NCBI GenBank assembly: GCA_026414605.1
Contig: JAOAIP010000005.1
Span: 1-45,277, forward strand
Length of the DNA: 45,277 nucleotides
Reading direction: 5' to 3'
From: Bacteroidia bacterium
Lineage (GTDB): Bacteria > Bacteroidota > Bacteroidia > B-17B0 > Aurantibacillaceae
Part shown: positions 11,195 through 13,920 of the stretch, one piece after another
Layout of the letters: each line of letters begins with the position of its first letter
Position numbering within the stretch: the stretch's first letter is position 1
Notes under the pieces: model-generated
What the model saw: the letters and a program-made list of their open reading frames with translations, nothing else
Databases searched by the model: none
What the model was told of the DNA's origin: nothing
Position numbers and translations under genes: made by a program

Positions 11195-12106
11195 TTAATC
11201 AGCGTCTTTATATCCAAAGTAATTTAGTTTGTTTTTATTGTTTCGCCAATTTTTCTCTACTTTTACAAAAAGTTCAAGATAAATTTGTTTTTTGAAAAAT
11301 GCTTCTAAATCCTTTCTGGCGGCTATTCCAAGTTCTTTAATGGCTCTTCCTTTTTCGCCAATAATAATCATTTTTTGAGTTTCTCTTTCAACAATAATAT
11401 CTGCTTGGATACGAATGATTTTTTCATCTTCTTTGAATGAATTGACAATTACTTCTACTGCATAAGGGATTTCTTCTTTGTATAAAAGAAGAATTTTTTC
11501 ACGAATAATTTCGCTTACTATAAAGCGTTCTGTTTTGTCGGTGATATTTTCTTTATCAAAATAAGGTGGAGATTCGGGAATATAATTTTTTATTTCATTT
11601 AAAAATTCTTTGACACCTGTGCCAATTAAAGCAGAAATTTTTAAGATATGTGCATTGGGTAGTTGTTCTTTCCATTCTCTTTCTATTCTATTTATGATGT
11701 CTTCTTTTACAAGGTCTATTTTATTAATCACCACAAACACGGGGACTAAACTGGCTTTGAAGCGTTCAATGTATTCAGTTGGAATATCACAGGGTTTGTG
11801 AGCATCAATGAGTAATAGCAAAACATCTGCATCTTGAAATGCTTGATCAATGTATTGAAGCATTTTGTGATGAAGTTCATTGGAGGGCTTTTGGACAATT
11901 CCTGGCGTATCTGAAAAAATAATTTGGTAATTCGGTTCATTGTAGATGGCTAAAATACGATGACGAGTGGTTTGTGCTTTGGGTGTAACAATGTTAAGTT
12001 TGAATCCCATTATAGCATTTACTAACGAAGATTTTCCCGCATTTGGGCATCCTATAATATTGACATATCCGGCGTAATGTTTTTGAGTAGTAAGTGGTGT
12101 ATTCAT
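11195..12106 (-). CDS. era: GTPase Era
   Basis: An essential GTPase that binds the 3' end of 16S rRNA and aids 30S assembly. The 303-aa protein carries G1 GCPNAGKS (19-26), the TT switch I, G3 DTPG, G4 NKID and G5 SAL, followed by the C-terminal KH domain with IIGEKGRAIKELG. Length is standard. It begins 10 nt after the stop of the protease gene, so its expression is probably tied to the sigma factor/protease unit. rsmA, which modifies nearby rRNA bases, is elsewhere in the window. Confidence 0.96.
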   Translation of the reverse strand: MNTPLTTQKHYAGYVNIIGCPNAGKSSLVNAIMGFKLNIVTPKAQTTRHRILAIYNEPNYQIIFSDTPGIVQKPSNELHHKMLQYIDQAFQDADVLLLLIDAHKPCDIPTEYIERFKASLVPVFVVINKIDLVKEDIINRIEREWKEQLPNAHILKISALIGTGVKEFLNEIKNYIPESPPYFDKENITDKTERFIVSEIIREKILLLYKEEIPYAVEVIVNSFKEDEKIIRIQADIIVERETQKMIIIGEKGRAIKELGIAARKDLEAFFKKQIYLELFVKVEKNWRNNKNKLNYFGYKDAD

Positions 12107-12116
12107 AGAGGATTAA

Positions 12117-13178
12117 TTATACAGATTTTTGATAGACATACACTTTAAAGATAAAGGTCTTCATTTTTTGTATTGTAGATGATTTGTTTTCTTTTTTTGA
12201 AGGGAATTTTTTGAATGCTTTAGTCCATATTTGTTTAATGCTATCAGCAGGTAATGAATCTTTAATGTTATAAATCATTGTTGATTTAAGAGCAAAGGCA
12301 ACACCTTCCATACTTGTATTTTTACTCATTACTATGCCAATCAATGATCCACTATTATCAAATAAAGGACCACCGCTATTTCCAGGATTTAATGGCAGAG
12401 TAATTTGATAAAAAGCAGAATCGTTGTCATAACCATTCATTGCACTGATGTATCCTTCGTTGTATACCAATTGGTCAGAGGGATAACCAAGCGTAAATAC
12501 ATTGCTTCCTAATTCTGCAGGTTTGTTTAATAAGTGAATAGGGATATTTGTAATTTTTAATTGAGGAATATAAAGCAAAGCAAGGTCTAAATTTTTATTG
12601 GTGTATACAACAAGTGCTTTGTTTCTTTGAAGATATTCATTTTCTACAAAAACAGAATCGGCATTTTGAACAGAATGGTAGGTAGTAAGTAAGTAGTTAG
12701 AAGCAATTAAAAAGCCCGTAGATTGGCTATTAGCAGTGGGATGTTGTTGGGTTTTGATTTTTTCAATGTTTTGTACAAGATGATGCTGTTGTTTTTGGAT
12801 ATTACTTAATTCTTTTTTTAAGTAAGTGATTTCTTTATCTTGTTTTTTAGTTTCTTTTTTTAATGTATCATAAAACCATAGTCCTGTTAGGGTTACAACC
12901 AATGCTACAGATGCCGCAATATAAGCCACTCGCCACCAGTTCTTTTTATGATGGTCAGAAATAGATGTCATTTCTTCAAGATACCATTCATTCATTATTT
13001 GTTCTAATTCATTTTTTTGATGGTAATCTTTAAAGGCATTCATTAAACTTTGATACTCATCAAATGCTTTTTTGATAGTATCATTTGAATTCAGTGTTTC
13101 TTCAAATGCTTTTTTTTCTTCTTCATTCATTTGATGTTGTAGATATTTGTCAAACAAGTCGGTCATATTGGGGTTCAT
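12117..13178 (-). CDS. Membrane-anchored trypsin-like serine protease with anti-sigma-like N-terminus
   Basis: A 353-aa protein with four parts: an acidic helical cytoplasmic region 1-80 (LFDKYLQHQMNEEEKKAFEE) like the N-termini of Bacteroidota anti-sigma factors; one transmembrane helix at about 83-102; a Lys/Gln-rich coiled coil at about 105-145; and a trypsin/DegP-like domain at about 150-310 with H168 in LTTYHSV, D198 in NLDLALL and S268 in NPGNSGGP. No PDZ domain is seen. It overlaps the stop of the upstream ECF sigma gene by 4 nt (ATGA), so the two are translationally coupled. I infer that it controls that sigma factor from the membrane. The family cannot be named with certainty, and the protease target is unknown. 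Confidence 0.8.
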   Translation of the reverse strand: MNPNMTDLFDKYLQHQMNEEEKKAFEETLNSNDTIKKAFDEYQSLMNAFKDYHQKNELEQIMNEWYLEEMTSISDHHKKNWWRVAYIAASVALVVTLTGLWFYDTLKKETKKQDKEITYLKKELSNIQKQQHHLVQNIEKIKTQQHPTANSQSTGFLIASNYLLTTYHSVQNADSVFVENEYLQRNKALVVYTNKNLDLALLYIPQLKITNIPIHLLNKPAELGSNVFTLGYPSDQLVYNEGYISAMNGYDNDSAFYQITLPLNPGNSGGPLFDNSGSLIGIVMSKNTSMEGVAFALKSTMIYNIKDSLPADSIKQIWTKAFKKFPSKKENKSSTIQKMKTFIFKVYVYQKSV

Positions 13179-13768
13179 AGGTTTATATTTTTAGTAAAAG
13201 AAGGTTCATTTGTTTCAAAAAATATCTTTTTTAATCTTTGGAGGCATTTGTATTTTTGATTTTTGGCTACATCGGCATTGTTGTATCCTAATTTTTCTGC
13301 AATTTGTTCCATTGACAAGTGGTTGTAATAAAATTCTTTTAATAATTGATAACAAGGATTGCCGAGTTGTTGCATAGCCACTTGCATTTTTTCAATATGT
13401 TTTTCTTTTTCTTGATATTCTTCTAAATAAGATGCTATATCGTCATCTTTAGAATCAAAATTTTGATGGTATAAATCTCCTGAAGGGTAGAGGTTTTTAT
13501 GTTTATTTAAGTGCTTTAACCACAACCTTCTTGCTATTGCGTATATCAAGGTAGATAATGAAGATCGTAAAATAAAATCTTCTTTTTGGGCATTATGAAT
13601 AAGCACCATTAAGGTTTCGTGATAAATATCTTTGGCGTCTGATTCATTGCCATTATTGGTTAGTACAAAATGCCGTATCATCTTAAAATACTGCCGATAC
13701 AGGGCTTTTAAAATGATTTCATCGTGTTGTTTAATGCCATTTATAAAATCTATGTCAGAATATTGCAT
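13175..13768 (-). CDS. ECF-type RNA polymerase sigma factor
   Basis: A 197-aa sigma-70-family regulator. Region 2 appears as LYRQYFKMIRHFV and DAKDIYHETLMVLI (about 23-60). Region 4 has a helix-turn-helix in LSMEQIAEKLGYNNADVAKNQKYKCLQRLKKI (about 152-183). There is no region 1 or 3, the ECF layout. Its stop overlaps the start of the membrane protease with anti-sigma-like N-terminus, the usual arrangement for a sigma/anti-sigma pair. A -7 box is at 13797-13804. Confidence 0.88.
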   Translation of the reverse strand: MQYSDIDFINGIKQHDEIILKALYRQYFKMIRHFVLTNNGNESDAKDIYHETLMVLIHNAQKEDFILRSSLSTLIYAIARRLWLKHLNKHKNLYPSGDLYHQNFDSKDDDIASYLEEYQEKEKHIEKMQVAMQQLGNPCYQLLKEFYYNHLSMEQIAEKLGYNNADVAKNQKYKCLQRLKKIFFETNEPSFTKNINL

Positions 13769-13796
13769 TGGCTTTACATTAATACTAATTAGCCCA

Positions 13797-13804
13797 CAAA
13801 AGTA
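13797..13804 (-). promoter_or_regulatory. Promoter -7 box for the sigma factor operon
   Basis: The minus strand reads TACTTTTG, matching TAnnTTTG, 28 nt before the sigma factor ATG at 13768. No clear -33 TTG is visible. Confidence 0.5.
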
Positions 13805-13920
13805 ACCTTTTTAAAATAGATGGGCTATAATTTGAAAGTGGTTTAAATATAAAGATCAAATAAACTAATAAAAATCCTTGAGTATTTTTACACAGAGTGT
13901 TTTAAGAAATATGATTTCTT

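Follow-up and report, generated by a model that had tools for sequence, protein, structure and literature searches.

A putative anti-sigma factor fused to a DegS-like protease domain is linked to an ECF sigma factor and a predicted lipoprotein regulon in Bacteroidia

Background

The sigma-E/RseA/DegS/RseP cascade of E. coli is a described case of regulated proteolysis around an ECF sigma factor (PMC10202637). The locus reported here resembles it in bringing together an ECF sigma factor, a putative membrane anti-sigma factor and a DegS-type serine protease, and in possessing an Ala-Ala pair where the membrane helix begins. RseP cleaves RseA at the corresponding Ala-Ala, after VAA, and ClpXP acts next. 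Unlike the sigma-E system, however, the putative anti-sigma factor and the DegS-like protease form one chain here, a PDZ domain is lacking, and only a very small regulon is predicted.

Within the phylum, the nearest precedents are the EcfO/Reo and Das/Dma systems of Bacteroides, which are likewise ECF/anti-sigma pairs of Bacteroidota with lipoprotein targets. The targets of EcfO include surface lipoproteins (NigD), and the pair has been proposed to answer outer membrane stress (PMC13114119, PMC13088901). Reo and Dma span to the outer membrane and no protease has been described in them, whereas domains of this type reaching through the outer membrane are absent from our protein, which has 353 aa and whose C-terminal end consists of a protease domain followed by a short tail. 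In addition, the predicted targets of the fusion system are low-complexity lipoproteins of 60-90 aa that were not identified as NigD.

The nearest precedent for an HtrA-family domain on an anti-sigma factor is RsgI9 of Clostridium thermocellum, which carries an S1C (HtrA-family) peptidase-like domain. RsgI-type anti-sigma factors also have XAA motifs in the membrane helix, and ClpXP degrades fragments ending in XAA (PMC12203970). They differ from the present protein in their SigI-type sigma partner and in self-cleavage by a different autoproteolytic domain, and the S1C-like domain of RsgI9 has been described as a polysaccharide binder. Finally, the class I anti-sigma domains of RsiW and RslA resemble the N-terminal domain in fold, with weak scores, and D11 of RseA, the acidic residue of helix 1, has a counterpart in D/E10 of the fusion (PMC7406223). 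Unlike RsiW and RslA, the protein studied here has no zinc-binding His/Cys motif. Searches of the open-licence literature turned up no ECF anti-sigma factor joined to a trypsin-like protease; an earlier mention in the main ECF re-classification is possible.

Organization of the sigma-protease locus

The window, that is, the whole 45,277-nucleotide stretch of DNA that was analysed, belongs to a genome of 2.48 Mb in 76 contigs. It contains the following genes of interest:

13175..13768, minus strand: ECF sigma factor, 197 aa (TIGR02937 above cut-off)
12117..13178, minus strand: putative membrane anti-sigma/protease fusion, 353 aa (family matches, hydropathy and AlphaFold model)
13175..13178, minus strand: ATGA overlap of the sigma stop and the protease start, 4 nt common to both genes
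11195..12106, minus strand: era, the next gene (NF000908 above cut-off), a genus-specific linkage outside the conserved system

The sigma protein matched TIGR02937 (sigma70-ECF) with 57 bits against a cut-off of 42.9, and the same family was matched by all 66 aligned sigma members at E <= 0.001. A sequence-only reading of this DNA had described a 4-nt ATGA overlap between the two genes, a single-pass membrane protein and a complete trypsin triad. Each of these features was recovered: the overlap lies at 13175-13178 on the minus strand, the protein has one hydrophobic segment (best residues 84-102), and H168, D198 and S268 lie within TTYHSVQ, LDLALL and PGNSGGP. The full-length model, with its DegS-type fold, also agrees with the proposal that an anti-sigma front and a protease are joined in one chain. 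Among the named relatives, the distance from the sigma gene to the protease gene ranges from -23 to +220 nt and is exactly -4 in 14 of 78 loci. Thus, gene adjacency is conserved, but the exact overlap is not.

Distribution and linkage to the sigma gene

The window genome contains one full-length copy of the fusion. Of the 87 genomes of the order, 80 encode a full-length relative, usually 33-38% identical and aligning from about residue 5 to the end, and one more has a copy truncated by a contig end. In the class, about 59 of 395 sampled genomes, representing ten families, carry it. Named members include Pedobacter, Chitinophaga, Pontibacter, Mucilaginibacter, Sphingobacterium, Olivibacter and Adhaeribacter. 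A search of viral contigs found no relatives. In two genomes of the order in which the protease was not found (G050 and G055), the promoter described below and the sigma gene are present, and the contig ends inside the sigma gene.

The linkage of protease homologs to a sigma gene had been set as a test by the sequence-only reading, which also called for a search for the same pair in other Bacteroidota. A sigma gene lies directly upstream of the fusion in each of the 78 named loci for which upstream sequence exists, its frame being incomplete in two of them, and in 245 of 251 loci of the full, redundant locus set; many environmental members of the Bacteroidota carry the pair as well. The refuting outcome, protease homologs with no sigma gene beside them, is clearly not borne out. 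The further suggestion, a role for the sigma factor in tuning translation by way of era, found no support in this comparison. In the window, era starts 10 nt beyond the protease stop, and it follows the fusion only in the same-genus loci L001, L004, L005 and L006; among the 78 scored named loci, it does so only in the two that belong to that genus. Because the era link is limited to the genus of the window genome, the translation-tuning idea is unsupported.

Two more trypsin-like proteins are encoded in the window genome (L002 on contig C52 and L003 on contig C48 of G000), in frames of 583 and 495 aa. They were rejected as further fusions, since the alignment covers the protease domain only, and neither a sigma gene nor an anti-sigma front was present among the frames read at the C52 locus.

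The N-terminal region as a putative anti-sigma domain

12963..13178, minus strand: residues 1-72, predicted helical anti-sigma domain with acidic residue 10, Tyr12 and Phe25 (AlphaFold helices, weak RsiW/RslA folds, sister module)

The AlphaFold model of the N-terminus contains helices at residues 3-13 and 19-31 and a long helix at 33-71; the expectation for a class I anti-sigma domain is a bundle of three helices at the N-terminus and a fourth helix preceding the membrane. Family databases gave weak matches only for the front of the window protein (NF052375, E 0.0018; DUF3379, E 0.0043), and no anti-sigma family was matched in a Pfam scan of 69 fusion members. We also used sister loci, which are those of the closest sigma genes not adjoining the protease gene. 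A profile of the N-terminus matched the protein encoded after the sister sigma gene in 15 of 20 loci, over the first ~65 residues, with E values from 3e-10 to 9e-5 (database size set to 100,000). No further match was found at E <= 1 among the 369 ORFs of these loci, the window's own protein aside. The remainder of the matching sister proteins differs, with a C-terminal part other than that of the fusion. In addition, three of ten scanned sister proteins matched NF052375 'anti-sigma factor' (best E 5.4e-8).

A search of 350,542 PDB chains with the modelled first 100 residues gave RsiW bound to SigW as the best match, and RslA was also among the twelve fold matches listed. Scores for RsiW were weak (Foldseek E of 1.1; Z of 6.3, within a range common for helical bundles). 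Given this weakness and the ease with which small helical bundles match, the fold matches were treated as supporting evidence only. Asp or Glu occupies position 10 in 149 of 153 distinct pairs; in class I anti-sigma domains, the acidic residue of helix 1 contacts sigma region 4 (PMC7406223). Coevolution between the sigma factor and the N-terminus was also analysed by mutual information and mean-field couplings (153 pairs, ~97 effective); the couplings extended across the entire protein, and those within a protein were not sensible.

Taken together, the sister-module profile, the RsiW/RslA folds, NF052375 and the acidic residue at position 10 lend better support to the view that the front of the fusion is an anti-sigma domain, as had been proposed from the sequence, with family-database matches of the window protein itself that are weak. 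The comparison points to a recurrent anti-sigma module in Bacteroidota that exchanges its periplasmic parts. One protein adjoining a sister sigma gene (L194:620-3022, minus strand) combines the same anti-sigma-like N-terminus with a cytochrome c domain (Cytochrom_C, E 1e-9) and is a possible haem- or redox-sensing anti-sigma factor. Another sister protein (L183:174-2540, minus strand; 788 aa) has an anti-sigma-like N-terminus followed by a large remainder that matched no family, and might be Dma-like.

Membrane helix, linker and protease domain

12870..12929, minus strand: residues 84-103, transmembrane helix (hydropathy)
12912..12920, minus strand: residues 87-89, predicted site-2 cut and ClpXP degron (A88 and A89 invariant, XAA motif)
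12744..12869, minus strand: residues 104-145, helical linker in the periplasm (model helix 75-140)
12279..12731, minus strand: residues 150-300, DegS/HtrA-like serine protease domain with no PDZ (Trypsin_2, DegS delta-PDZ fold, triad)
12129..12191, minus strand: residues 330-350, conserved C-terminal tail of a helix and a strand (confident in the model)

The alignment of 153 distinct pairs revealed eleven invariant positions over residues 3-353. Nine of them fall in the protease domain, and the remaining two, A88 and A89, open the membrane helix and are the sole invariant residues upstream of that domain. Residues 87-89 read IAA in the window and mostly VAA in the relatives, the usual context being VAAS. 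This pattern suggests intramembrane cleavage of the fusion at Ala-Ala, followed by degradation by ClpXP. The stretch from 104 to 145 is probably a coiled-coil linker, according to the model, in which the helix 75-140 has low confidence around 113-115.

The fusion protein matched Trypsin_2 with 76.8 bits against a cut-off of 27.6. The full AlphaFold model is confident over the protease domain, and its best fold match was DegS delta-PDZ; this part also resembles the MarP family. H168, D198 and S268, together with the oxyanion glycine G266, are identical in all 153 pairs. No PDZ family was found in the scan of 69 fusion members; therefore, the fusion is not DegS, though its action may resemble that of the DegS protease domain. 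The C-terminal tail past the protease domain is strongly conserved as R..Q.K......V..VY.

A conserved predicted promoter in front of the sigma operon

13779..13807, minus strand: predicted sigma-dependent promoter GGTTAC-N16-GTATTAA (exact match ahead of the sigma operon)

A two-block motif, GGTTAC-N15/16-GTATTAA, was first seen by reading upstream regions. Exact copies occur in 66 of 76 loci (the window and the named relatives) and in none of the shuffled regions; among distinct loci, 119 of 152 have one. A conserved two-block promoter ahead of the factor's own gene is common, though not universal, among ECF factors. In the 2.48 Mb window genome, the operon's own site was the only match to the strict pattern. 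Most genomes across the order contain one or few strict matches, and typically one of these, of the form GGTTAC(C/T)TTT, is located ahead of the sigma gene.

A predicted regulon of lipoprotein genes

We then applied a weight matrix to the 78 named loci. The operon's own site was found in 74 of them, and other sites numbered only 63. Of these extra sites, 60 lie ahead of a gene for a small lipoprotein, mostly oriented divergently from the operon and distributed over 54 loci. By comparison, 12% of small ORFs in the studied loci pass the same loose lipobox test. The loci come from related species, so that the counts are non-independent events. A Pfam scan of the target lipoproteins, which are low-complexity proteins in the 60-90 aa range, gave nothing convincing.

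The predicted target in the window genome is a 62-aa lipoprotein gene on contig C58, with an intergenic promoter match 28 nt upstream containing one mismatch and a terminator-like hairpin 3' of the gene. Its orthologs in two same-genus genomes are divergent from the sigma operon and carry the same motif. In the mismatch-tolerant search of the window genome, the raw number of matches does not exceed that of the reversed-pattern control; the credibility of the C58 target thus comes from its intergenic position and its orthologs rather than from match counts. The remaining matches with 1-2 mismatches lie inside long open frames and were rejected.

In Mucilaginibacter (L091 and L112), small lipoprotein genes are arranged in tandem upstream of the sigma gene, each with its own promoter, and up to three such promoters occur in a row, one per lipoprotein. 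A longer lipoprotein of 286-288 aa, coiled-coil-like and preceded by a GGTTAC...GTATTAA promoter, was observed in several genera on other contigs of relatives (L265, L268, L269, L270, L271 and L276); judging from the promoter, it is likely a second conserved regulon member. The sigma regulon is likely small, comprising its own operon and lipoprotein genes. The promoter and the predicted lipoprotein regulon are what is new here, and they say more about what the sigma factor controls than the sequence-only reading, in which they were absent.

Proposed mechanism and alternative explanations

The reading that we favour, with somewhat better than even confidence, is that the sigma factor is held by an RseA/DegS-like fusion, and that a cleavage cascade started by the fusion itself leads to induction of its own operon and of small lipoproteins. 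At rest, the cytoplasmic helical domain (residues 1-72) would keep hold of the sigma factor. An envelope signal, perhaps linked to lipoproteins, would switch on the periplasmic protease, whose first cut would fall in the helical linker of its own chain or of a neighbouring copy. The membrane helix would then be cut by an RseP-type protease at its invariant Ala-Ala pair, after which ClpXP would clear the remainder through its XAA end, as the motif suggests. The freed sigma factor would act at GGTTAC-N15/16-GTATTAA to transcribe its own operon together with at least one small lipoprotein gene. In this scheme, self-cleavage as the site-1 step is inferred from the architecture only; the linkage to the sigma gene, the domain order, the intact active site, the invariant Ala-Ala, the promoter and its predicted targets come from comparison of the sequences themselves. 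We also entertain, tentatively, a closed loop in which a single polypeptide serves as anti-sigma factor and as its own site-1 protease, and the induced lipoproteins feed back on the protease as ligand or inhibitor, so that lipoprotein traffic in Bacteroidota would be monitored.

The chief rival reading is that of an anti-sigma factor with a protease that spares itself and degrades other envelope proteins, with substrate binding or turnover signalling across the membrane. HtrA proteases commonly degrade misfolded envelope proteins, which counts for this explanation, as do the fully conserved catalytic site and the predicted targets, which are envelope lipoproteins. However, it accounts for the invariant Ala-Ala of the membrane helix less simply than a cleavage cascade does, and we consider it possible at well below even probability. 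It might also be supposed that the protease-like domain is a sensor module that only binds, like the C-terminal S1C peptidase-like domain with which the anti-sigma factor RsgI9 of Clostridium thermocellum binds polysaccharide (PMC12203970). In that case, loss of the triad would be expected in some lineages, but the three residues are identical in 153 of 153 pairs while the protein varies at 30-40% identity; a binding-only module is therefore disfavoured and seems quite improbable.

A different objection is that the front is not an anti-sigma domain at all, and that a MarP/HtrA-like membrane protease is simply co-transcribed with a sigma factor controlled otherwise. The lack of a Pfam anti-sigma match, the weak NCBIfam similarity and the resemblance of the protease part to MarP are all compatible with this. 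However, the same N-terminal module follows sister sigma genes in loci without any protease, and RsiW and RslA are among the best fold matches, which makes such a scenario unlikely. As for the unit coupling envelope stress to ribosome assembly via era, era starts shortly after the protease stop in the window and also comes next in the other same-genus loci, but outside the genus era is absent there while the promoter and the lipoprotein linkage persist, and we give this explanation almost no weight.

Significance

In a survey, class I anti-sigma domains adjoined only 6% of Bacteroidetes ECF sigma genes (PMC7406223). Under the favoured cascade, an anti-sigma factor with its own DegS-like protease would spare the textbook sigma-E cascade one separate protein. 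The promoter sequence and the group of small lipoproteins together offer a concrete, testable regulon in the culturable Pedobacter, Chitinophaga and Mucilaginibacter.
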